Source: Phanerochaete sordida
Taxonomy: Eukaryota > Basidiomycota > Agaricomycetes > Polyporales > Phanerochaetaceae
DNA length: 64,000 bases
Direction of reading: 5' to 3'
NCBI GenBank assembly: GCA_019973155.2
Contig: BPQB01000042.1
Location: forward strand, 62,001 to 126,000
In this document: positions 25,076-39,694 of the stretch, one piece after another
Position numbering within the stretch: position 1 is the stretch's first letter
Layout of the letters: the number at the start of each line of letters is the position of its first letter
Notes under the pieces: generated by a model
The model's input: the letters and a program-made list of their open reading frames with translations, nothing else
What the model was told of the DNA's origin: nothing
Databases searched by the model: none
Program-made: the position numbers and the translations under genes

Positions 25076-28000
25076 CTAGATCCGCCACTCGCCGAAGAAC
25101 TCCATGTCGGCCTGTACAAACCCAAGCATGTAGTCCACCGTCGTGCCGCCGTCCTCTTCCTCGTCCTCATCATCCTCCGCGCCATCGGCATCCTGAGCAT
25201 CGCCCCCGCGGTCCTCGTCCGCGTCCGGCTCCTGCTCCTCCGTCTCGATGCGCACCCTGCGCACACCCGCGGCGCTGTCCCCAAAGTCCGCCTCGTCGGC
25301 GCCGGTGATCTCGACCTCCTCCCGCGCGGCGACCTCCCGCGCGACACGGTCCTCCGAGTCCTCGACGTCGCCGAGCGCGCGCTCGAGCGCCGCGACGCTG
25401 AGCCCGCCCGCGCCGCCGACGGTGCCGACGCCGAGCCCGCTGCCCGCGCCGTCGTCGCCGAAGAGCACGCGCCAGTCGAACTCGCCCTTCTGGATGACGA
25501 GGTCGTCGAGCGAGCGCTTCTGGTTCGCCTTCCGCAGGAGCGCCTCCTCGACGGTGTGTCGCGCGATCAGGCGGTAGATGTGCACGTCGCGGATCTGGCC
25601 GATGCGGTGCGCGCGGTCCTCGCATTGCCGGTCCATCTGAGGGTTGAAGTCGCTGTCGTAGAAGATGACTGTGTCTGCACCAGTCAAGCTGAAGAGTACG
25701 GCATGGCTGTCAGAGAAATGTCAAGAATAAGAGTGACAGACTTACTTTATTCCAACACCTCCTGATCTTGAAGAGGAGATGAAGCAGAATATGCGAGGGT
25801 CGGTGTTAAACCTTTCGGTGATATACTGACGGTCCTCAATCTTGGTCGCGCCGTCAAGCCGAAGGTAGAGGTATCCGTGAAGGTTGAGGAAGATCTCGAG
25901 AATATCAAGAATGCGGGTCATCTGCGTGAAGATGAGCACACGATGTCCGCCAGCCTTGCGCTCGCGGAGAAGACGGGCGAGCTCTTGCAGCTTCCCGCAG
26001 TCGTACTGCAAGAGCGAAGGGTCGGGAAAGGCGATTTGGAGCTTAACTGTTGCCCGGTGTAAGGCGGCATCGAACTCGGTGTCGAAGGCGTAGCGAGAAA
26101 CCGGTTCTTCCTGGCCAGAGAGAGCGATGTTCGGCAGGTCCCGGGCCACCACGGATGGTGTAACGAACGCAAAGCGGTCTACAACGTCCGCCATCTCCTC
26201 TGACCGCGCCGCGTATGATTTGACGAGGAGGTTCACTCTGTCGCAGTTGGTCAGGTGTCCGATCCGCTTGTCTAAAGCGGAATAGGGAAGAAGGGGTTTA
26301 TAGCAGCGTTGGACGATACTCAAGGTCTCCTCCGAGAAGATCAGCTCGTTCGAGTTGCACCGTTTCCAGTTGATGTAGCGCATCTGGGCCCAGCGCGCGG
26401 CTGTGTTGACCTTCTCCAGGTAACGTGTGTACCGCTTATATCCAGAGATAGTCCGAGTGTCCTCTGGAGGCCGCTCGGGGAGTTCGGTGATCAATGGAAG
26501 ACAACGGGTCCCGTCCAACCGCTGACGCTCCTCTTGAGCGAGCTGCGAGGTATTCTGACGGTCGATGAAGCGAAGGCCAAGGAAGTCCAGGTTGACCTTC
26601 GCAGCGTCGTCCTCCTGGAGGAGCTGTCTTCTGACAAGGAGTTCCTTGATCTCGTAGTCCGCGATGGCCGACCTCGACATGGCGAACGACGTCCGGATGG
26701 GCCGCACCTCAAACAGATCCGGGTGGTTGACGACCTTGCGCAGCTGCATAAGGATGTTCGCGATCTTCTGGTACACGCCCGACTGCAAGTCGTGGCGGGT
26801 GTCGGCGCGGGACATGAACTCGTCGTACAGGAACCGCTGGCGTTTCGAGAGTGGGCACATCACCAGGTGCTCGAACTTGCTGGGGAGCTCCTTCTCGACG
26901 TCGCGCTTGAGCCGGCGAAGCAGATAGGGACGAAGGACGCTATGGAGCTTCCCTACGCGCTCCTGCACCTCGTCGTCGAGCACGGTTCCCATCTCGATCG
27001 CCTTCTCGAGTGGGTTGGCGAACCAGTCCGCAAACTCCTTGAGGTTGGCGAAATTTGTGCCCGACATGAGGAACTGGAGCAGAGCCCAAAGTTCCGTCAG
27101 GTTGTTCTGGAGCGGCGTGCCCGTGAGCAGGAGGCGGCGGAAAGACCGGAACATGAGCAAGATGTTCCAGCGCTGAGACTTGAAGTTCTTGATCATGTGT
27201 GCCTCGTCAAGGATCATGTAGTACCATGCCTTGCGCTTGAAGACGTGGGAATCTCGGCTGGCGAGCGTATAAGACGTCACGCAGACGTTAAAGTGGTACT
27301 TGTTGTTCCAGCCCTGACGCAGCTCCTTGCGACGTTTGGTGTTGCCGTGGTAGCTGAGCACCTTGAAGCCAGGCAGGAACTTCTTGAACTCCATCTCCCA
27401 GTTCAGCAGCACGCTGGTAGGCACGATGATCAAGTGCGGGCCCCAGATGCCGCGGTCGCAGGCAAGGTGCGCGAGAAGTGCGATAGTCTGGATGGTTTTC
27501 CTGTAATCGACATGTCAGCTTCGCGCTCAATTGGCTCATGAGCATAATGGTACATACCCAAGTCCCATCTCGTCAGCGAGGATGCCATTGACGTTGTTCG
27601 TATGGAGACTGGCCAGCCATTCCAGACCCGAATGCTGGTATGGTCGAAGGTTTCCTCGAAGGAGAAGCGGAGGCTTGATCTTCTCCTCGGGATCCCACTC
27701 TAAGGGCGCTACAGCATAGGGACGCAGATAGTTGGGTATCGAGGACTGAGTCCCAACTTCTTCTTCGACCAGATCCTGCTCATCGTCTACTGGCGTCGCC
27801 GTGGCTGTCCCGTCGGCAGCATCGTGGTCGGGTATTACGCTATTCTTCAAGTCCAGCGGTTCGACGTCGACCCGTAACTGGTCTGGTACCGCTTGGGGCT
27901 CCTCTACGGGAGGTCGCTGGTAGCCGTTAGCTGTTCGCTGCGGGATCTCTTCCGCCTGAGGCGGAAGTTGGGGTACCTGGTCTTGCGGAGGGAATGGGGA

Positions 28001-29772
28001 CGAGCGCCCAGAGGATAGGCCCGAATCCTGGTCGATCAAGAGAGACTTGACCGACATGCGTCCATTCGATTCAGAGAGTGGTTTCACGTGCTGTCGTACA
28101 GGGCTCTTTTCACTCGAGACTGGTCTGCCCTTGCCTGGTGACTGCACAGCCCCTCCGGTGCCAGCCAACGCATCGAGAGACCCGATAGGGACGTCAAACG
28201 CAGGACTCTGCGGGCGCGTCGCATTTGGTTCCGACGGTATCGAGTGGAAGCCCTCGTCGCCGTCATCGCCGTCGTGGAATGTCGGAGAGGGTGACAGTGG
28301 CGGATCCGTGCCCTCATCTACTTCACTGAATGATTTCGACCGTGAAATGAGCGATCCAGTGTCGTGCGCCTCCACAGTCTCGTCGTCGGAGTCTGAGTCC
28401 TGCTCCTGGCCGCGTTCGTCGTCATCGTTCCCGTCAACATCCGAACCTAGGTCTTCTTCTGGTGCCGGCGAGGCAGAGGCCCATCGCGACAGAGTGTCAG
28501 CGAGGCTGCTGGATCGACTCCGGGAGCGAGACAAGTCGCCCTTCGTCATGTCAACTTGCTGCGCCTCGAGTAGCTGGCCTGACTGGTCCAGAATGGCATC
28601 GAGGTGTTCATGGCCTCTCCGTCGCTCTTCGGCTTCGCGTCTAAGACGTTCCTGCTCGCGTATATGCTATACAGAAAATCAGTGATATTTCGTGTGAAAG
28701 TACCAGCGATACTCACGAAGACAGCCTTCTTCCACTCCGATGTCACCATCCTAATCGTCGCCTTTGCCAGCGCCTTCAGCCGCTTCTCCTCTTGGACCCT
28801 CGCCTTGTCGTCACGAACAGCCCGCAGGCCCCAGTACACCTTCACCTGACTCGCGACCTGCGCCGCCACCTCGGGACCCTTGGGCAGCTGTACCTCCGCG
28901 CGTGCCTGGACGGCGTCGATGACGGCATCCCACGCGTCGGGCTTCCTATGCGTCTCCGGCCATCGTTCTCCAGCACCGTCGTCGTCTGGCGGGCGGTAGA
29001 GCATCCGCCCCTGCCGACGGAGCCCGTCGATCTTCCGCCACACCGCAAGGTCGTCGCGGTACAGCGCCCGCAGTGCCGCGCTGTCGAGGTCTTTGCCTGT
29101 CGGCGCAGAATAGGACATGAGAAAGTCGGTGACGGAGGCATACTTTTTCGCCGGCGGGCGCTGCAGCGGATGCGTGAGGGTTGGTTCCCGCGGACCTACG
29201 ATCAACTTGATACGCTTCACGGTTGGGGAGGTTGGCTCAGGTGGTAGGTCGACAATGCTTTCGGCTAGTGACTTCTCGACGCGGGAAGACGCCCGAGTGC
29301 TGCGTTGTGCAGGCGATTGTGCACGAGGGCTCGATGGGTCCACGTTCACAGCCTCGGATGTTCGCAGTTTCCGCTTCTTGTAGGTAGGTGGCGGAGCAGG
29401 TGGTGGCTCCATGGCAGATCGCCGGCGCGAGTACGCACTGACTGAAGTATGCGGGATGTTAGAGGAGGAGATGGACATCGAATCGTCGTCTGGTGGCGCA
29501 ACCGCTCTTGCCTTCCCCTTGCGGCCGCGGGTGGGCGTGGCGCTGATGGAATGCAAAACGGTCTCCTCAAGAGCTCTTTGTTTTCCCTTGCCTTTGGACT
29601 TGACTTGGTCAAGAAGTTTCCAGACGACCTTGTCATCCGTAGCAGGCTTGTTCGAGAGGCCTGGTGGCGCAGATGCACTGGGAGTCTGTAGCGCTTGCAT
29701 GCGCTCGTTGCGCGCCCGGCGTGTTTTCCTTGAGGGACCGGCATCGTTGGACCCTAGCAAGTCATATTTCAT
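25076..29772 (-). CDS. SWR1: SWR1 chromatin-remodelling ATPase
   Basis: Exons 29772-28717, 28666-27558, 27500-25746 and 25688-25076 give 1510 residues. Order: a basic disordered N-terminus; an HSA domain (WKKAVF joined by splicing to [20 protein letters not shown], then [15 protein letters not shown]); an acidic Ser-rich stretch; the SNF2 ATPase with [19 protein letters not shown] (Walker A, split by an intron), [16 protein letters not shown] (DEAH) and [16 protein letters not shown]; then the INO80/SWR1-type insertion; and the helicase C lobe with [17 protein letters not shown] and [11 protein letters not shown]1 exchanges H2A for H2A.Z at promoters. Length matches the family. The HSA domain, long insertion and [18 protein letters not shown] favour SWR1 over other SNF2 groups. 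Confidence 0.92.
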
Positions 29773-31361: not shown

Positions 31362-31825
31362 TTGTGCGCGGGATGATCGTTTCTCATATCCACATGTCGC
31401 TGACGATCCCAGACATGTACTTGTATGATTTAATCTCACGACCTGCATGCTGCTTCGACGATACAAGTCGGGAAACGTATCAGTTGGCGGCAGTCGTGTG
31501 AAATGTCATGCAATTTCTACCCAGCCGTTCCTGGTGCTCCGGTGCTTGGTGCAAAGTCGCCAGCCATCCGAATGTGCTATATGCGAAAGCTGAACTTCAA
31601 CCGAGACCTTCAGCTATATAGGTCTACTACAAGCTATCTACGACGTCCGAACACCGTGGAGGATTGCCCAGGTGCGCTCATCGCTGCGTTTCATGCTTCC
31701 TTGCTCAGCATCGTCATTGCGCAGAGGCCGACCCGCTGCACTGTGGCGTCCGGTCATGAAGTCCTATCAGGCTGCGTACCCTCGCCAAATCTGTACGATG
31801 AGCCCGTCGAGCGCACGAAGCTCTG
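31362..31825. other. Intergenic before the secreted-peptide locus
   Basis: Acylphosphatase 3' flank and SSP-A promoter; no other feature seen. Confidence 0.5.
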
Positions 31826-31833
31826 TATAAAAT
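31826..31833 (+). promoter_or_regulatory. TATA box of SSP-A
   Basis: tataaaat, 57 bp before the ATG at 31883. Confidence 0.6.
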
Positions 31834-31882
31834 GGGGCACGATGTCTTCTCCCCAGCCTAAGACATCGAACAGTCCTACACA

Positions 31883-32082
31883 ATGCGCTTCTCATCCTCT
31901 ATCGTTTATCTCCTGGCTCTTGGGGCCACCTTTTCCATGGCAGCTCCTGCGCCTGTTGCGATACCCGTAGCTCAAACGTACAAGACTCCCGCTCTCGTCA
32001 ACTCTACTCATTCTGACGTTCCTTCCCATCCAGCACCACGCCCCAGCCTGACTGCATTTTTGGAGCTTGCCCGCCGGACTGA
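31883..32082 (+). CDS. SSP-A: tiny secreted peptide precursor (X-Pro/X-Ala pro-region, Cys pair)
   Basis: Exons 31883-31977 and 32034-32082 give 47 residues. The signal peptide is about residues 1-20 (MRFSSSIVYLLALGATFSMA). Next come the dipeptides AP-AP-VA-IP-VA, a pattern that dipeptidyl aminopeptidases of the Ste13/DPP-IV type remove stepwise. The remainder would be QTTTPQPDCIFGACPPD, with two cysteines four residues apart that could close a small disulfide loop. The single intron is phase 2 and separates precursor leader from peptide. The unspliced frame gives a longer unrelated tail. The splice was chosen because it yields the CxxG(A/S/T)CPP-like ending shared with SSP-B. Final peptide and role are inferred; no known family. 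Confidence 0.62.
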
Positions 32083-32824
32083 AATATCGTCGCTTGTCAG
32101 TTCTATCCATCCTGTTGAACCTCATCGCACCCTAATGGATATCTACAGGATGCTAGTTGGCCTTTGTCCATGTTCGCGAATGGCTAGAAATATACTCGTC
32201 CGCATATGTTCCCTATTTTGCGATTCGGCATCAGCACGTACACATTTTCGTGCAATGTCTAAGTGCCGCCAGACAGTATATCTCAAAAGAAAAGGCATTC
32301 ACAACTGGTCTTTGCGGTATGCATTCTGCTGACTCAGATCGAAGCCCACTCCCCTGTGAGTCGCCAGATAACACATGTCCGTGAAAGGTCCGCGACATCT
32401 GGACCACCCTGCAGCGCACAGCCGCGCCTCAGGGGCCTAACACCTCAGCCCCAGGATTAGACGTCGGGTACTTGACTCCCACGTATCGTACCGTACCAGC
32501 ACCTTGAGCGAGTACGTGGTTCATCGCTGGCTGTCAGGCACCCTCCACTTATCGCACCCCCACAGGGACAGAACTCAATCACTCGAATACAGTGGCACGC
32601 AGCCCATGTGTTCAGCCCCATTCGCTGGTCAGGCGGCCAGATAGCAGGTGGCGGCGTTCGACGATGCCCGAACACCGTGCACCATCCAAATTTAGTGCGA
32701 CGCAACAATCGTGCCTCGCCGCTGACCGTTCGCGGTACCTGTACGGGGCATTGACTGGACGCTGAGCCGCGGTCGAACGGGAGGTTCGTCAGGTCGGCAC
32801 GCCCGTCATCCACGCCCATTGACG
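32083..32824. other. Intergenic, no gene seen
   Basis: SSP-A 3' flank to SSP-B promoter. No coding exon supported. Confidence 0.5.
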
Positions 32825-32832
32825 TATAAATT
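32825..32832 (+). promoter_or_regulatory. TATA box of SSP-B
   Basis: tataaatt, 86 bp before the ATG at 32911. Confidence 0.6.
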
Positions 32833-32910
32833 CCGCGCAGACACGGGGCGCGCAAACTACTCTTCTTGATCCACGTCCCCAACTCTCAGCCCGACGACGC
32901 ATTGTCTGCC

Positions 32911-33111
32911 ATGCGCTGCTCCGCGGTCTTCGCATGCATTTTGGCTTTGGGTGCCGTCCTCGTCGGGGCTGCGCCTGTGCCAATTCCCGAACCTGTCGCA
33001 GAGCCGTGCGTCGATATCCTTTTACCCACTGTTCGGATGCTGATCATTTTCTCACGTAGGAAAGGACCAGTAGAAGACAACTGCGTCATGGGCTCTTGCC
33101 CTCCGTGGTAG
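32911..33111 (+). CDS. SSP-B: tiny secreted peptide precursor
   Basis: Exons 32911-33005 and 33060-33111 give 48 residues. The signal peptide is about residues 1-20 (MRCSAVFACILALGAVLVGA). A six-dipeptide run follows, AP-VP-IP-EP-VA-EP, and then KGPVEDNCVMGSCPPW, the expected product after X-Pro/X-Ala trimming. The cysteines are four residues apart, and the ending CVMGSCPPW parallels SSP-A's CIFGACPPD. The intron is phase 2 and lies at the same place as in the other SSP genes. The end has the length of a CaaX box (C plus three), but Pro-Pro is not aliphatic and a signal peptide is present, so prenylation is unlikely. Confidence 0.65.
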   Translation: MRCSAVFACILALGAVLVGAAPVPIPEPVAEPCVDILLPTVRMLIIFSRRKGPVEDNCVMGSCPPW

Positions 33112-33415
33112 AGCGGGAGATGTCTGTGCGTGTACATGCTTTCACTGCGCCTTGATGATACTCATGTCTAGGGACTGTAGAGCTATCAGCAGGGGCGTAG
33201 GACGTGCTTGTGACGAAGCCGATGCCGGACGCTGCCGGACGCTGCCACATAAGCTACGAATCGCATTTGGGATGGGGCAGATATCTACCTACGCGTATTT
33301 GTCTCCTTAGGCATGTCAAACGCAAACCCTTCGTGCTGTGATTTCCTCTGCCCGAACACCGCGAGCGTGCGACTTCGCTTAGCCTCGACGGTGCGCCCGC
33401 CGCCCCTCGCTACAG
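33112..33415. other. Intergenic, no gene seen
   Basis: About 300 bp between SSP-B and the SSP-C promoter; includes a short direct repeat (gccggacgct twice near 33225-33245). Confidence 0.5.
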
Positions 33416-33424
33416 TACAAAAGG
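33416..33424 (+). promoter_or_regulatory. TATA-like box of SSP-C
   Basis: tacaaaagg, 78 bp before the ATG at 33494. Confidence 0.4.
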
Positions 33425-33493
33425 GCCGGCCGTCCTGTCTGTGCATCACAACTCGAGCCCGTACAACCTTTACCACAAGCTTCTTCTTCTGCA

Positions 33494-33685
33494 ATGCGCT
33501 TCATCTCCATCCTTGCCTCGATCCTCGCCGCTGCTATCGCCGGAGCCGTGGCTTCGCCAGGCCCTACTGCAGAGCCGGACCATGTGCAAGCGCGGTGAGT
33601 CTAACGGAGCCAGGCTCTGCATGTCCGTGGTCTCTGACAGAGTGGCAGCGAACCCCATGCGACCGTGTGTACGCCTCCGTGCTAG
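33494..33685 (+). CDS. SSP-C: tiny secreted peptide precursor
   Basis: Exons 33494-33594 and, preferably, 33649-33685 give 45 residues. The signal peptide is about residues 1-20 (MRFISILASILAAAIAGAVA). The dipeptides SP-GP-TA-EP follow, then DHVQAREPHATVCTPPC, with cysteines three residues apart at the very end. Several acceptors are possible: cag at 33640 would give a longer basic tail ending at 33703, while gag at 33642 or cag at 33648 both keep the VCTPPC ending. I favour 33648 (tggcag) because it matches the other SSP genes in intron length (54 nt) and in having a paired-cysteine tail. The intron is phase 2. Confidence 0.5.
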
Positions 33686-34375
33686 TCCGAAGATGCGGAT
33701 ATGATTCGGTACGTTTCTCTGCAGAAACTGCTGCTCGGGTTGGACGCTGACAGAACTACAGAGACCGGCGACTGGGCTTTTGAATGTCGGTTAGGCGACA
33801 TGTTTGTAGGATACATGACAGGCGTCATGTTGCTTGCTAGCAACTTGACGAAAGTATCGTCCGTTCGGCATTGATCTCGCTGCGGAGAGCGGTATACCCC
33901 GCCACATACGGATGAGCAAGTACGCTGCAATGTCGGAGCCGGGCACGGCAGTTGGTTCGAGACTCGGCCATAATCAACGCCCCTCAGTAGCGTGCACATA
34001 CAGCCGTGGCTACGGTGATCGCACCACTGTGAGCACCGTTGCACACAGCATCGTGTTCGGCAGCTCGCTTGGAGCCCAGGTGCTGATGGGCAGGCATATG
34101 ACTACCGACGCCGACGTACAGCATTCACCTTTATATCTAGTGACGCATACACGCCGGCCTGTTTCCGTGGGTATACCTGCCTCCCATCACGCACCCCCGT
34201 GCATGCGGAGTACCGGGGCAAGCGTGGCCGAGGGCGAGCAGATGTAGCAGCCGACTGCACATCAACGTTAGTTTTCGCTGGCGTGTCCTATCAGCCCGTC
34301 TCATTTCGCCTATGCCACCCTGCGGTATCCGGTCCCCGTATGTCGAAATCGGAAGACTTCTCTTTTCCGGTCGTG
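33686..34375. other. Intergenic, no gene seen
   Basis: About 690 bp between SSP-C and the SSP-D promoter; nothing recognised. Confidence 0.5.
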
Positions 34376-34384
34376 CATATATAC
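34376..34384 (+). promoter_or_regulatory. TATA-like box of SSP-D
   Basis: catatatac, 76 bp before the ATG at 34452. Confidence 0.5.
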
Positions 34385-34451
34385 GCTACAGACGTAGGTA
34401 TCGTTTGCCACCAGCTTCAGCTTCAACAAGAGCCCTCATCGAGCATCCGCC

Positions 34452-34648
34452 ATGCGTTTTACCGCCGTCGCTGCCTCTATCCTCGCCTTCGCCGCCGCCA
34501 GCGTTATGGCGTCGCCCAACCCCGCCCCCAACCCCGTCGCAGAGCCGTGAGTCCATTATATTGCCGTACCTCTGCTCTAATTTAACGGCCCCTCTGCAGT
34601 GCGCCCCATCAGACTGTATGCGAGCCTGGCACATGTGGAAGGAAGTAA
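34452..34648 (+). CDS. SSP-D: tiny secreted peptide precursor
   Basis: Exons 34452-34546 and 34600-34648 give 47 residues. The signal peptide is about residues 1-20 (MRFTAVAASILAFAAASVMA). The longest dipeptide run of the set follows, SP-NP-AP-NP-VA-EP-AP, leaving HQTVCEPGTCGRK with cysteines four residues apart and a basic end. The intron is phase 2, with donor agagcc|gtgagt and acceptor ctctgcag. The ending CEPGTC fits the C-x-x-G-(A/S/T)-C pattern of SSP-A and SSP-B, and VAEP before the core is shared with SSP-B and SSP-E. Precursor design is seen in the sequence; processing and function are inferred. Confidence 0.65.
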
Positions 34649-36140
34649 AGGATGTGTGACAGGTAGTACACGTCTCCTGCGTGTTGTCTCCCTCGTGATG
34701 ACTGATATCGTTCGACGCAGGCCTCATTCTAGCAGTACAGTCGATCGCACATTGCATATTACATGCCTTTTTGTGAACTGTATATCCATGCGTTAGGCCA
34801 TGACAGAAAGTAAAGCTGTATATGCATGTAGCGTGCCGTGAACGGTCACGGGCTTTTGTGAGCTTGAACCACAGCCCTTTCCATTCTCAGCGAGAAGTCT
34901 GATGGCAGACAAATGATCCGCCAAGGTCGGAGTCGCCCGCCGCGCCATGAGCCTGCTTGCGCTCTTCCACCGTCGCGGATGCGCTTTCTGAGCGATATTC
35001 TCGAGACTCTGCCTCACAATTTCTGCTGTATTATGATAAAAAGGCGTAGGCGTATAGGCCTCAAGATATCGGCATCATGTATGGGCGGCGTGGACAGTGT
35101 ACGCGGTCCTCTACGCCATAGCCCAGCCTGAGTTCGGGCTGCTTCCTGTCCTCGAGTCGTAGCTGGGGGCGGCATGCCCCCAGAACGGTATGCAACGTGC
35201 GTTTTCTGTTCATGCACTGCATCAGCCTCGGCCCACGCTTATGCAGACATGTCCAGTGCGAGCTCCTCAGTGGCTACCGCGCGTCCGCGATCTGGTGCTT
35301 CGAGGGAGATACGCCCGACACCTACGTGAGCGGATCGCCGCAGGATTGGCCTCACACATGGGCGCTCATGAATCATCAGGATTCCCGACCTCGCAGCCCT
35401 CCGCGCGGACCGCCGCGGGATCGTGTTATGTCCGTACAGACGCACTACGCGCCCTGTGAGCGCGCCCGCGACGACGAACCTGCGCACGGGAAGACGTTTC
35501 GAGTAGGGATCCCGTAACGTTCAGCTGCTGTTGTGCCTGAGCGACACGCCCCGAGACGCTTCTTGTCCTCCCGCGGGAGCCGGCCCTGGGCGCGAGCACC
35601 GTGCATCCCTGAGCGTGCACGCCACCACGGCCGCCCGGCATCTTTGGGCAGGGACTGCCTCTGCTTGCCCTGATCCTTCCTTCAGTCATATCTTGGGCCA
35701 TCAACGTCCGATATCGGCTTCGACTGTGTGGTGCTGCCGTATGGGCTGGGGAGAGCGCCGCGGGTGTTGCATAGTCGCTCGCTCCGAAGGTACGTCAAGG
35801 CTTCGTTTTTCATCATAGTGGTGCTCACTGCTGATTTCGAGTATTTTGCTACTGTAGCTGCTGTCCGTCGCTCCGGACCACTCATCCGACGCATACGGAG
35901 ATGCACGCATCTGCTCCGTACTGGAGCCTGAGGGACCACTGCGCCTCCAGTCAGAGGCCACTCACCTCGTGCAAGGTGCTATGCTCGAGGGTGTACAGCG
36001 GACGCGCCCACTGCGTCAAGCTCTGGGCTGCAGCCGTGGAAATCTCTCCTACCCTGGCCCTCTCGTGCTTCCTGGCGTGAAAGTGTTGGATTGCAATATC
36101 CTGTAACACAGGGACCTCAATGTCCCTTCCCGGCCTCCAG
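34649..36140. other. Intergenic with a duplicated upstream block, no gene seen
   Basis: From about 35240 to the KEP1 promoter the DNA matches about 38240-39190 upstream of KEP2. Frames that are open in one copy are broken in the other, so this is likely non-coding or a decayed gene. Confidence 0.5.
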
Positions 36141-36148
36141 TATAAAGG
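36141..36148 (+). promoter_or_regulatory. TATA box of KEP1
   Basis: tataaagg within ctccagtataaagg, 68 bp before the ATG; same context as KEP2. Confidence 0.65.
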
Positions 36149-36208
36149 ACCTCGCAGCTACGACGGTTTCCTCAGCTCCTAGCAAAGCCCTTTCAACCCA
36201 AACACAAG

Positions 36209-36715
36209 ATGCGCTCCTCCATTCTCTTCTCCGCCGTCCTCGCCCTTCTCGCCACCGGCGCAGCAGCCCAGGGCCTTGCCGAGTCGTCCGTCGGGCCCAT
36301 CGAGGACGGCACCCCCCTTTTCCCCGCCAAACGCTGCACGTACGTCCGCCCGCCAGGCTGCACCGCGCCGTGCGCCCCCTCTGACAGCGTCCCCCATGCA
36401 GTGCGGGCGGGCTGTTCCCTGCGAAGCGCTGCGAGTGCGTCTGCCTCGCTGCATGCGTGTTCCCGAGGGGCTGACGCGTGCTGTTGAGTAGCGTAGACGA
36501 GGAGTTGTATCCGGCCAAGCGTTGCACGTGAGTCTTCGCGCCACGAGCGATGGTTCTGAGACGCTTATGATAGACTGCGTCCGGTGCTCACAGAGCCTCG
36601 TACCCGCCGTCCAAACGCTGCTAGTGAGTACTATGTTCAAGGCTCTTTCGACGAAGCTGACAGCCCTTCGTGCAGCGCGGAGGAGGACGGAGGCTTCCCG
36701 CCCAGGTCTGAGTAG
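36209..36715 (+). CDS. KEP1: secreted Lys-Arg repeat peptide precursor
   Basis: Five exons: 36209-36339, 36402-36434, 36492-36527, 36594-36623 and 36676-36715, giving 89 residues. The signal peptide is about residues 1-20 (MRSSILFSAVLALLATGAAA). A leader ending GTPLFPAKR follows. Each tiny exon then adds one unit ending in Lys-Arg: C-T-AGGLFPA-KR, C-D-VDEELYPA-KR, C-T-ASYPPS-KR, and a last C-Y-AEEDGGFPPRSE. Kex2 in the Golgi would cut after each KR, releasing peptides of 8-14 residues that start with Cys and contain an aromatic-Pro (FP or YP/YPP). All introns are phase 2, so exons can be gained or lost in frame. The longer unspliced frame is not preferred because it breaks the repeat. Paralog of KEP2. 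Fungal precursors of this type include alpha-type pheromones and some cyclic-peptide precursors; which applies is unknown. Confidence 0.75.
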
Positions 36716-37288
36716 GCTCTTCGGGAGCGAAGGAATCCCTTGTGAGCCTCGGTGAGTGTGCTGAAGGACCAGCAGCATTTTGAGCGTCGCTGAATGGTCT
36801 GCAACAGCCATGCGCTTAGACTTGTAGAGGGCATTGTAGTGGTCCTCTGACTGCGAAATACACTGCCGAAAGTTGTCCGTGCGTTCTGTGAGATCGCGAG
36901 GAGCTGATAGCTGTGCTGAGGACCACAGTGATGTCCACGCTCTGCAAAGCTTCGTGGTCGACGCGATTCGCTCTGATGATCGTCGGGCTGACCACCGCCC
37001 CAAGACCCGGGAGCGGCGTCGGCCTCCCGTGTCGGACAACGACCTCATGCAGAACCTTCACCGTGGTCAAAGCGGAAGGGTCGTCAGAGCAATGGCCCGA
37101 TGGCATGCCTGTCATCTGACGGCCTGCATATTGATGGTTGAGCAAGCACATCAGCCGGCCGCGTCGCCGCCTAGTATCCCGCCGTTCCAGCGGCGGATCC
37201 GATCAATGTCTCCACACCCTCGTCGGGGGTCCGAGGTCGACATATGGCGGCGGAGCAGTGCTCGACATGCCAAGAGATTCATTGAAGG
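36716..37288. other. Intergenic, no gene seen
   Basis: KEP1 3' flank to SSP-E promoter; nothing recognised. Confidence 0.5.
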
Positions 37289-37296
37289 TATAAAAG
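37289..37296 (+). promoter_or_regulatory. TATA box of SSP-E
   Basis: tataaaag, 83 bp before the ATG at 37372. Confidence 0.65.
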
Positions 37297-37371
37297 CTGG
37301 ATTGGCCCTGCTGCTGGCTACTCAGCTCCGAGCACCTAAATTTGCTAAACACCTCCAAACCGCGTCCAGTA

Positions 37372-37571
37372 ATGCGTTTCGTTGCTATCTTTGCCTCCGC
37401 TCTTGCTGTTGCTGTGACTAGCGCTATGGCTGCTCCTGTCGCGTACGTCCTAAACGGCTGTGGTGCTTCCAACTCCATCCATAATGACCTGACCGCTGCG
37501 TCTCCTCTAGTGAGCCTGTCAACTGCGTCCCTATCACACACTGTGTCCTCCCGGAGACGTCTGAGGCTTGA
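37372..37571 (+). CDS. SSP-E: tiny secreted peptide precursor
   Basis: Exons 37372-37442 and 37511-37571 give 43 residues. The signal peptide is about residues 1-20 (MRFVAIFASALAVAVTSAMA). A short dipeptide run AP-VA-EP follows, leaving VNCVPITHCVLPETSEA with cysteines five residues apart. The donor gtcgc|gtacgt and acceptor cctctag give a phase-2 intron as in the other SSP genes. It lies between KEP1 and KEP2 and outside the visible duplication, so the SSP and KEP genes are interleaved. An upstream in-frame ATG at 37342 is ignored because the signal peptide starts at 37372, the distance from the TATA box fits, and the other genes start MRF. Confidence 0.62.
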
Positions 37572-39192
37572 TGATTGGTACGCAGCGCACTATCTCGAGG
37601 TGGAACGTAGGTCCCATTCTGATTTCACAGAAGTTCAATATTCAATGCTGTCAGCACATAGCGGTCTACGTGGCAGTACTTGACTACTTATTTGGAGCAG
37701 CCGGTGGGGAGTCCGGCGCAGCATGGATTACTTTAACAGCTTCGCGTTCGGAGCATTCGATGTCCCTAATTGTGTGCTATAGTACAAATTGGTGCTGCAA
37801 TAAGGGGGCACATTGTTATCCACGCAGACTGTTAGTCTCGTCCCCATCCGCACTCGGCGTCGTTCGGGCGGTGCCGAGCGGAGAAGTGCATCGGACATCG
37901 AACAAGCGACTCTGGAGTCTGGACCTCTGGTGCTGAGTTACTACCGTCCCGCCGCGATGGCTTCTGTCATGATCCTGGTGACTACGCTCTCTTAGTTTTA
38001 TTGCGACATTTTCTCAGCTCTGCATCGCATAAATATTTCGATAATATTGAAATAGATGCTTATAGGCTTAAAGCCTCAGAATGTCCGCGTCTCGGATCGC
38101 ACACGGTGTACGACCTCGACGCTGGAGAGCAGTACGGACGACTTGCAACTGTCTTCGTAGGGGACCGCAAGACGAGGGGCGCGCAGCGCGCATTCTTTGC
38201 CCGTAAACCGCTACCACCTATCAATGAACGCCTGTACAGGTATGTCAAAGGCCGGCCCTCCTCGATGGCTGCCGTACAACGCGTCAGCGATCTGGTGTTC
38301 GAGGGAGATACGCCACACATCTACGTGGGCGGATCGTCGCAGAATTAGCCCCACAATGAACCGCTTATGACTCACCAATCACCAGGATCCCGACCTCGCA
38401 GCTCTCCCCGCGGACCGCCCGCGGGATCGTGCTATTCTCGTACAGGCGCACTACGCGTCCTGCTAGTGCATTCGCGTCCACGAACGAGCTGCGCATAGAG
38501 AGACGTTTCGAGCAGGGATCACGTAACATTCAGCTGTGACCGTCTTTGGGCGACGCGCCCTCCGACGCTCCTTGTCCTCCCGCGGGTTTAGGCCCTGGGC
38601 GCGGGCGACCTGCATCCCTGGGTGTGCACACCACCACGGCGGCCCGACATCTATGGGCATGCGCTGCCTCCGGGTGCCGTGATTGTTCCCCTGGCGGTGC
38701 CCTGTGTCATCTTCTTCCGACACCGGCTTCGTCTCCTGGAGAGTGGCGCGATGCTGCGGTATGATCTTGCGAAGCCGTCACCAGTGTAGCCTCGTTGCTG
38801 CAGTTCACCGTACGTTTTAGGGTTAACGGTCGTCTGCAGAAATACTGACTCGAATTAGAAGCTTTCAGCGCGATCCGTATTGCGATCTCCCTTGCTCGCC
38901 GTAGACTATCCATCCGACGCATACGGGGATGCAATCGCATTCTCCATACTGGGGCCTGAGGACTCACTGTGCCCCTAACTAGAGGTCACTCACGATTCAC
39001 CTCGCGTAAAGTGCTATGCTCGAGCGTCCACAGCGAGCGCGTCCCTTGCGTCAAGCTCTGAACTGCTGCGGTGGAGATCTCTCCTACCCTGGCCCTCTCG
39101 CGCGTCCTCATGTGTCCTCGTGCGTCCAGGCGCGAAAGCGTTGAACTGCATCACTGTAACACAGGGTCCTCAACGCCCTTCTCGCTCTCCAG
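37572..39192. other. Intergenic with a duplicated upstream block, no gene seen
   Basis: The right part (from about 38240) is copy 2 of the KEP upstream block. The frame at 38001-38348 is not kept in copy 1. Confidence 0.5.
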
Positions 39193-39201
39193 TATAAAAG
39201 G
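39193..39201 (+). promoter_or_regulatory. TATA box of KEP2
   Basis: tataaaagg within ctccagtataaaagg, 87 bp before the ATG. Confidence 0.65.
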
Positions 39202-39279
39202 CCTTACAGCTGCAGCGGCTACCTCAGCTCCCAGCAAAGCCTTCTCCAGCTCGCAAAGCCCCCTCGACACAAACACAAG

Positions 39280-39694
39280 ATGCGCTTCTCCACCATCTTC
39301 GCCTCCATCCTCGCCCTCGCCGTCACCGGCGCAGTGGCCCAGGGCTCCGCCAAGTTATCCGTCGGGTCCAGCGAGGACGGTCTGTTCCCCGCCAAGCGCT
39401 GCTCGTACGTCCGCCCGCCAGGCTGCGCCGTGCAGCGCACCGTCTCTGACAGTGTCCTCCACGCAGTGACGACGGGCTGTTCCCCGCCAAACGCTGCGCG
39501 TACGTCCGCTCATCAGGCTGCGTCGTGCCATGCACCTTCTCTGATAACGTCCCCCATGCAGTGACGACGGGCTGTTCCCTGCCAAGCGCGGCCTGTACGT
39601 CTACCTGCGCGCATGCACCTTTCAGAGGCACTGACATGTTACGTCTCGCAGCGCCGAGGATGACGGCGGGCTGTTCCCTGCCAGGTCCGAGTGA
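39280..39694 (+). CDS. KEP2: secreted Lys-Arg repeat peptide precursor
   Basis: Four exons: 39280-39404, 39467-39499, 39562-39594 and 39652-39694, giving 77 residues. The signal peptide is about residues 1-20 (MRFSTIFASILALAVTGAVA). A leader ending SSEDGLFPAKR follows. Exon units then give CS-DDGLFPA-KR, CA-DDGLFPA-KR and GL-AEDDGGLFPARSE. Kex2 cleavage after KR would release near-identical nonapeptides CSDDGLFPA and CADDGLFPA plus a longer C-terminal peptide. The units are direct repeats of exon plus intron with a 95 bp period, and all introns are phase 2. The final RSE and stop match KEP1. Repeats here are much more uniform than in KEP1, indicating recent expansion or gene conversion. Confidence 0.78.
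39376..39660 (+). repeat. 95 bp exon-plus-intron tandem repeat
   Basis: The landmark gacgg(t/g)ctgttccc occurs at about 39376, 39471 and 39566, with a fourth diverged copy near 39664. Each period holds a 33 nt exon and a 62 nt intron beginning gtacgtc; the third intron is 57 nt. Confidence 0.8.

Follow-up and report, generated by a model that had tools for sequence, protein, structure and literature searches.

The stretch of DNA analysed here, referred to as the window, comprises 64,000 nucleotides (nt) from the basidiomycete Phanerochaete sordida (Polyporales, Agaricomycetes; assembly GCA_019973155.2, contig BPQB01000042.1, positions 62,001 to 126,000 of the forward strand). Between 31.3 and 41.5 kb of the window, the only genes we recognised are short genes for secreted peptides, all lying on the + strand. 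Seven such genes form the array: five encode small precursors with a pair of cysteines (SSP-A to SSP-E) and two, K1 and K2, encode repeat precursors with Lys-Arg sites (Table 1). The initial annotation of this DNA had recorded the five SSP genes correctly, overlooking K1, which lies inside the span it covered, as well as K2.

SSP-A to SSP-E are two-exon gene models for proteins of 43-48 amino acids (aa), each made up of a signal peptide (called by hydropathy and A-x-A motif scans), an in-register run of X-Pro/X-Ala dipeptides and a short tail in which 3-5 residues separate two cysteines. In all five genes exon 1 comprises the signal and most or all of the leader and exon 2 the cysteine core, and start, signal, register, splice sites, both cysteines and stop are kept throughout. 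The introns measure 53-68 nt, follow the GT..YAG rule and are all phase 2, as are the introns of the whole array (12 of 12); a CTRAY branch-like motif is found 15-23 nt before the acceptor in all five SSP introns and in 11 of the 12 across the seven genes. The intron interrupts SSP-B and SSP-D where ...VAEP ends (in the latter the leader dipeptide AP still follows); it lies inside the dipeptide run in SSP-E, right after the run in SSP-A and a few residues past it in SSP-C. The run directly follows the signal peptide, and not a Kex2 site, in all five; a single arginine stands before a further EP in SSP-C only. By inspection, each precursor holds one core and neither KR, RR nor KK; SSP-A, B, C and E lack any dibasic pair, and SSP-D has a C-terminal RK only. 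The C-termini read, from A to E, PPD, PPW, PPC, GRK and SEA.

Two of the models allow other readings of their splice sites. For SSP-C, alternative sites yield GSEPHATVC variants or, when followed by eye, a frame with NCCSGWTL; the YAG acceptor was preferred because its product resembles SSP-D. The 54-nt intron of SSP-B (gene 32911-33111) is in frame and free of stops, and its retention would read ...FSRR-KGPVEDNCVMGSCPPW, so that a Kex2-type RR would stand immediately ahead of an unchanged core.

Table 1. Features of the array (positions in the window). In the spliced models a slash follows the predicted signal peptide and a hyphen the dipeptide leader.
Feature	Position	Strand	Description
SSP-A spliced model			MRFSSSIVYLLALGATFSMA / APAPVAIPVA-QTTTPQPDCIFGACPPD
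SSP-A exon 1	31883..31977	+	signal peptide + APAPVAIPVA leader
SSP-A exon 2	32034..32082	+	core ...PDCIFGACPPD; intron 56 nt, phase 2
SSP-B spliced model			MRCSAVFACILALGAVLVGA / APVPIPEPVAEP-KGPVEDNCVMGSCPPW
SSP-B exon 1	32911..33005	+	signal + APVPIPEPVAEP
SSP-B exon 2	33060..33111	+	core KGPVEDNCVMGSCPPW; intron 54 nt, phase 2
SSP-C spliced model			MRFISILASILAAAIAGAVA / SPGPTAEP-DHVQAREPHATVCTPPC
SSP-C exon 1	33494..33594	+	signal + SPGPTAEP + DHVQA
SSP-C exon 2	33649..33685	+	REPHATVCTPPC; intron 54 nt, phase 2
SSP-D spliced model			MRFTAVAASILAFAAASVMA / SPNPAPNPVAEPAP-HQTVCEPGTCGRK
SSP-D exon 1	34452..34546	+	signal + SPNPAPNPVAEP
SSP-D exon 2	34600..34648	+	APHQTVCEPGTCGRK; intron 53 nt, phase 2
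SSP-E spliced model			MRFVAIFASALAVAVTSAMA / APVAEP-VNCVPITHCVLPETSEA
SSP-E exon 1	37372..37442	+	signal + APVA
SSP-E exon 2	37511..37571	+	EPVNCVPITHCVLPETSEA; intron 68 nt, phase 2
K1	36209..36715	+	five exons, 89 aa, four phase-2 introns; public PsYK624_108460
K2	39280..39694	+	four exons, 77 aa, three phase-2 introns; public PsYK624_108480
Duplicated segment, copy 1	35263..36444	+	K1 upstream DNA + first exons
Duplicated segment, copy 2	38258..39509	+	K2 upstream DNA + first exons
CCGAACACCG element	31647..31656	+	upstream of SSP-A
CCGAACACCG element	32668..32677	+	upstream of SSP-B
CCGAACACCG element	33352..33361	+	upstream of SSP-C

The design of the SSP genes is not readily produced by chance. 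A finder for ATG, a hydrophobic stretch, A-x-A-like cleavage, an X-P/X-A run, an intron and a C-x2-6-C tail returned five matches in the window and none in 20 dinucleotide shuffles of it; the pattern was written post hoc, with the genes already seen, and SSP-A cleared the strict filter through a non-preferred, second-choice donor only. The same finder gave no match in eight 10-kb stretches outside the window, nor in all 32 non-window loci (167,107 bases, overlaps included). On these models, the five two-exon precursors of the initial annotation, with signal, X-Pro/X-Ala run and cysteines 3-5 residues apart, can indeed be read on the + strand where it had placed them. A looser scan recovered the five SSPs and also a single false match made of three nested ATGs (32135-32180); these signal-like frames (+), like those at 36931 (+) and 40573 (-), were dropped since they lack an X-Pro/X-Ala leader. 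When the unspliced leader alone was sought in 231 kb (window plus outside loci, with overlaps), SSP-A to SSP-D were the only hits: SSP-E was missed because the intron splits its run, and a Gly-rich secreted protein encoded on contig C7 was missed because its cleavage site begins with T.

The register of the leaders is strict. All 25 dipeptides end in Pro or Ala; each of the 19 prolines occupies the second position, and the remaining six dipeptides end in Ala. The permutation product for the proline position is 2e-8, a value that is too extreme, since these are related genes whose leader end is defined by the register itself. None of the 25 dipeptides is followed by Pro, which would block an enzyme of the DPPIV type.

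K1 and K2 carry one LFPAKRC-like core per phase-2 exon. The K1 cores end in LFPAKRC, LYPAKRC or YPPSKRC, and those of K2 read (C)xDDGLFPAKR; in K2 the exon-plus-intron unit is reported by Tandem Repeats Finder as a 95-nt repeat. Since the exons are symmetric phase-2 exons, an inner one could be skipped or duplicated without disturbing the frame. A KEX2-processed repeat protein (KEP) is defined as one that has a signal peptide and holds three or more similar repeats with KR, RR or KK between them (Le Marquer et al., 2019; PMC6339444), and RK has also been counted as a cleavage site (Vogt et al., 2022; PMC9769878). Counted by inspection and not with the published KEP pipelines, K1 has a signal peptide and similar repeats with four KR sites and K2 the same with three, and both belong to this class. 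Of 383 candidates in a protein search with spliced K2, two reached E <= 10: PsYK624_108480 and PsYK624_108460, both from Phanerochaete sordida. Our K2 and K1 models, built before these entries were seen, are identical to them letter for letter, and this agreement with an independent public annotation supports the intron architecture. It also contradicts, at least for K1 and K2, the earlier contention that genes of this sort escape ordinary gene finders: both are already annotated publicly, so ordinary annotation can catch such genes. The two genes lie in duplicated segments of about 1.2 kb that share 72% identity over 1272 columns.

Likeness between the signal exons connects the two kinds of gene. 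When the opening 66 nt of exon 1 are tested against codon shuffles, z >= 3 is reached by 14 of the 21 gene pairs in the array, the best being K2-K1 (53/66), K2-C (46/66), C-D and K2-D (45/66 each) and C-E (42/66); the control, an unrelated signal exon taken from the Gly-rich protein on C7, scores 25-35/66 against the seven genes (z 0.6-2.6). BLASTN within the window aligns exon 1 of K2 with that of SSP-C at 76% over 59 nt (E 2.5e-5). Because the signal exon of K2 resembles that of SSP-C, the array is probably one family, in which SSP-A to SSP-E, K1 and K2 would follow two maturation routes. For the core exons, aligned at the first cysteine (a choice that itself raises likeness), A-B matches at 20 of 39 nt (a fraction of 0.0015 of 2000 codon shuffles being as good), A-D at 18/39 (0.005) and C-D at 14/27 (0.0065), and E-B is marginal (0.061). 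At the protein level, the cores of SSP-A and SSP-B share CxxGxCPP and those of SSP-C and SSP-D share H[AQ]TVC.

Upstream of the ATG, at a distance of 45-95 nt, TATA[AT][AT] occurs in six of the seven array genes (SSP-C being the exception), against at most 2/7 in 400 shuffles. The upstream regions of SSP-A, SSP-B and SSP-C have in common the 10 bases CCGAACACCG, which may represent a shared control element; a 10-mer common to three upstream regions arose in one of 400 shuffled sets. The 9-mer CGAACACCG has no further copy on either strand of the window.

Genes for both types of processing enzyme are present in the genome. In our whole-genome searches, which score the best candidates alone, a single DPPIV_N locus was found, on contig C35 (5.1e-62), and its propeller part matches solved DPP4 chains at 1.1e-29. 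The frames there, followed by eye, show an acidic N-terminal tail, the hydrophobic stretch LRWLVICLTALVATAALIGVFAAF and a GIWGW / SYGG motif flanking an intron, a layout which we take to be that of Ste13/Dap2; the genome accordingly holds a gene for an enzyme of the Ste13/DPPIV type. A Kex2-type P-domain gene lies on contig C5 (2.4e-26), with a frame that runs on into a C-terminal hydrophobic stretch. The initial annotation's view of the SSPs as peptide precursors with a leader of the dipeptidyl-aminopeptidase type remains a good reading, the DPPIV_N gene being in place. We also considered a mating locus. Matches to the STE3 receptor family lie at five loci, distributed over four contigs (C11 twice, C4, C50 and C137), none of them on C42, the contig of the array, and SSP-A to SSP-E lack the C-terminal CaaX box of basidiomycete a-type mating pheromones; this idea was rejected because the CaaX termini are missing and the STE3 loci lie on other contigs. 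For STE2 (PF02116), searched in the same way as STE3, the genome gave no match, as did the control genomes, so that its absence is not thereby established.

From the gene structures and leader register read in silico, the likeness of the signal exons (K1 joining through K2 only) and the presence of both enzyme genes, we infer how the SSP transcripts are spliced and how their products are processed, closed by a disulfide and put to use. The interpretation that we favour, with some confidence, is that seven genes for secreted peptides, diverging fast, stand here in tandem, the SSPs being trimmed by a dipeptidyl aminopeptidase and K1 and K2 cut by Kex2, and that the products act extracellularly. 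Exon 1 would supply the signal peptide for entry into the endoplasmic reticulum and, in the five SSPs, most or all of the X-Pro/X-Ala leader, and the downstream phase-2 exon or exons would supply the core. After cleavage by signal peptidase behind A-x-A, a Golgi type II enzyme like DPPIV/Ste13 would strip three to seven dipeptides and halt at a pair that it cannot cut (QT, KG, DH, HQ or VN). The cysteine pair and the secretory route suggest that the two cysteines would then close a small disulfide loop before the peptide is secreted. SSP-D, which ends in GRK, may in addition be trimmed by a carboxypeptidase, and K1 and K2 would follow the other classical route, cleavage by Kex2 after the KR between their repeated cores. 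The role of the products is probably extracellular, either as species-specific signals resembling alpha-pheromones or as peptides aimed at other organisms.

SSP-C would probably need one more step, a Kex2-like cut after VQAR followed by removal of EP, to release HATVCTPPC. Its sequence VQAR-EP-HATVCTPPC has an aliphatic P4 and Arg at P1, and HATVCTPPC lines up with HQTVCEPGTC of SSP-D. The relaxed preference of Kex2 likewise comprises an aliphatic P4 and Arg at P1, the fit being loose because Ala at P2 is outside the five best alternatives (PMC8528282). Since VQAR before EP fits the relaxed motif even in this loose way, the product that the initial annotation had predicted for SSP-C is doubtful.

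Several observations weigh against this interpretation. For exon 1 of K1, the five SSPs give 30-35/66 (z 1.8-3.0), which does not improve on the C7 control and leaves K2 as the sole link between K1 and the SSPs; exon 1 of SSP-A, at 34-38/66 against the other SSPs and K2 (z 2.9-4.2), is only slightly above the control. Of the ten pairs of exon 2, six do not exceed chance (fraction above 0.09). Splicing of SSP-B is not forced, because its intron is in frame and open. The Gly-rich secreted protein on C7 (ATG at 461281) bears the leader APAPVPAPVAVP immediately after its signal; as this larger protein has one too, X-Pro/X-Ala leaders are not confined to peptides, may serve secretion in general, and are by themselves no proof of a peptide hormone. 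Finally, our searches found no relatives outside the array and hence no cross-species conservation.

These searches differ in reach. Whole-genome searches with SSP-D, E, A and C (E <= 10), SSP-B (E <= 0.001) and K2 minus its last exon (E <= 10) led back to the array alone, save for two weak matches of SSP-D, and among the best candidates scored the array is the only place in the genome with these cores. The match on C7 (E 0.057) is to the Gly-rich protein, in which the leader is present and the core absent. The other, at 2509449-2509565 on C1 (E 0.19), is a SLAEPAQQHTVCYAG stretch in which no signal peptide was seen, and was judged to be due to chance; this place reads SPSPDPSLAEPAQQHTVCYAG followed by a stop, recalling SSP-D across its intron. 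A profile of the five SSPs searched against 5.8 billion proteins returned 73 candidates, none at E <= 10, a null result that is not evidence of absence because a profile of 56 columns has little prospect of a significant score against that many proteins and could miss even public copies of the SSPs. In Pfam, none of the seven array proteins exceeds a family cut-off; SSP-E alone touches MF_alpha_N, at 12.5 against a required 22 bits and with its signal part only.

Alternatively, the SSPs may be small secreted proteins of an ordinary sort, effector-like or antimicrobial, whose Pro/Ala run serves as a generic secretion leader or spacer and stays in place, the product being the whole chain after the signal. 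The similar leader of the C7 protein speaks for this. The missing dibasic pairs in SSP-A, B, C and E, with only the terminal RK in SSP-D, and the lack of a Pfam family for the array proteins agree with this. Against it stand the strict register without Pro-Pro, which breaks just before the core in five genes, and the presence in the same array of KEX2-type precursors with a related signal exon. We regard this explanation as a serious but rather unlikely one. Less plausible still, and in our judgement improbable, is that a KEX2-type gene was duplicated in tandem and the SSPs are what remains of it, neutral or without function: the signal exons would have survived, and the exons read behind them would be random. 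The cores do differ strongly, in six of ten exon-2 pairs no less than in shuffles, and relatives are missing among the proteins searched (for which the SSP profile search is a weak test); yet none of the five genes has lost its start, signal, register, splice sites, cysteines or stop, TATA boxes are in place in four of the five SSPs and both K genes, and the cores of A-B and C-D look related. We think it very improbable that the products belong with the dikaritins, ribosomal peptides modified further through cyclisation by UstYa-type enzymes: the genome has at least 15 UstYa matches and the repeat architecture of K1 and K2 would suit such a route, but none of the listed matches is on C42, Pfam scans of 20 long open reading frames of the window gave none, and a UstYa neighbour accompanies only 103 of 1680 basidiomycete KEPs (6.1%; PMC7329392).

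Starting from a tandem array of secreted-peptide genes with two maturation routes, a more specific proposal can be made, which we offer tentatively and think rather unlikely. The SSP products may form a family of signalling peptides closed by a disulfide, restricted perhaps to Phanerochaete or the Polyporales, and released from single-core precursors by a dipeptidyl aminopeptidase alone. Their symmetric phase-2 core exons would have been exchanged or diversified behind a shared signal exon, one array would combine Ste13- and Kex2-type peptides, and an alpha-factor-like route would have been kept in a phylum not known for alpha-pheromone mating. The array offers a direct test of Ste13-type processing without Kex2 in a basidiomycete, and a test of how one gene family switches its maturation route through phase-matched exons. 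Should the SSP cores indeed be released, short genes that are unannotated or called 'hypothetical' may conceal many further peptide signals of fungi.

Outside the array, its left flank is formed by the end of an acylphosphatase-like frame at about 31.3 kb, assigned by eye, and its right flank by a frame beginning near 41.56 kb. Near it, at 25742-29772 on the - strand, lie frames of an SWR1-type SNF2 helicase whose best database relatives are environmental and agaricomycete.

Among known systems, the closest in kind are the KEPs of basidiomycetes, some of which have clear STE13 signatures (PMC6339444, PMC9769878). The statement of the initial annotation that no described family has this design was too strong, because STE13-signature precursors of Basidiomycota are in print (PMC6339444, PMC9769878), and the kind as such is already known. 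Like these, the SSPs have a signal peptide and an X-Pro/X-Ala run before a short core; SSP-B ends in Trp, as do some published basidiomycete KEP cores, and Vogt et al. (PMC9769878) treat the class of our host, the Agaricomycetes. When Coprinopsis KEP 490115 was expressed in Pichia its dipeptides were removed, a step called likely for mushroom peptides; KEP peptides were obtained from fruiting bodies of Lentinula and Pleurotus, and kep knockouts had no detectable phenotype (PMC9769878). The SSPs differ from these KEPs, which have several similar cores with dibasic separators, in having one core, two cysteines, no KR, RR or KK and a run that begins right after the signal. Repeats between dibasic sites are absent from all five (the RK of SSP-D separates none), and their in-register dipeptides do not follow a Kex2 site. 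By their stated criteria, the two KEP surveys would pass over SSP-A to SSP-E because they look for repeats between dibasic sites. K1 and K2, with a signal peptide and similar cores separated by KR, resemble the KEX2-processed repeat proteins of PMC7329392, and differ from KEPs in general in carrying one core per symmetric phase-2 exon; in the KEP papers whose text was searched for it, the word 'intron' occurs nowhere in PMC7329392 and once, on cDNA cloning, in PMC9769878.

The second point of comparison is the alpha-factor route. In melittin-type and yeast alpha-factor precursors, X-Pro/X-Ala dipeptides are removed stepwise from the pro-segment, in melittin without repeats; the likeness of the SSPs to these is one of design, and sequence kinship is not claimed. 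Ascomycete alpha-pheromones have cores that follow Kex2 sites and act through a Ste2 receptor, and the CxxGxC of SSP-A, B and D recalls the C...G..C of those of Sordariomycetes. With two-cysteine ascomycete alpha-pheromone precursors the SSPs share STE13 dipeptides and a two-cysteine core, and a KEP of the basidiomycete Trichosporon oleaginosus has a two-cysteine core like those pheromones (PMC6339444). In the literature searched, mostly outside subscription journals, the KEP papers alone came close, and neither a single-core, cysteine-paired design lacking a dibasic Kex2 site nor an array that mixes it with KEX2-type genes turned up; what apparently is new at this locus, compared with all of these systems, is a single-core, cysteine-paired precursor without a dibasic Kex2 site, standing beside KEX2-type paralogs.

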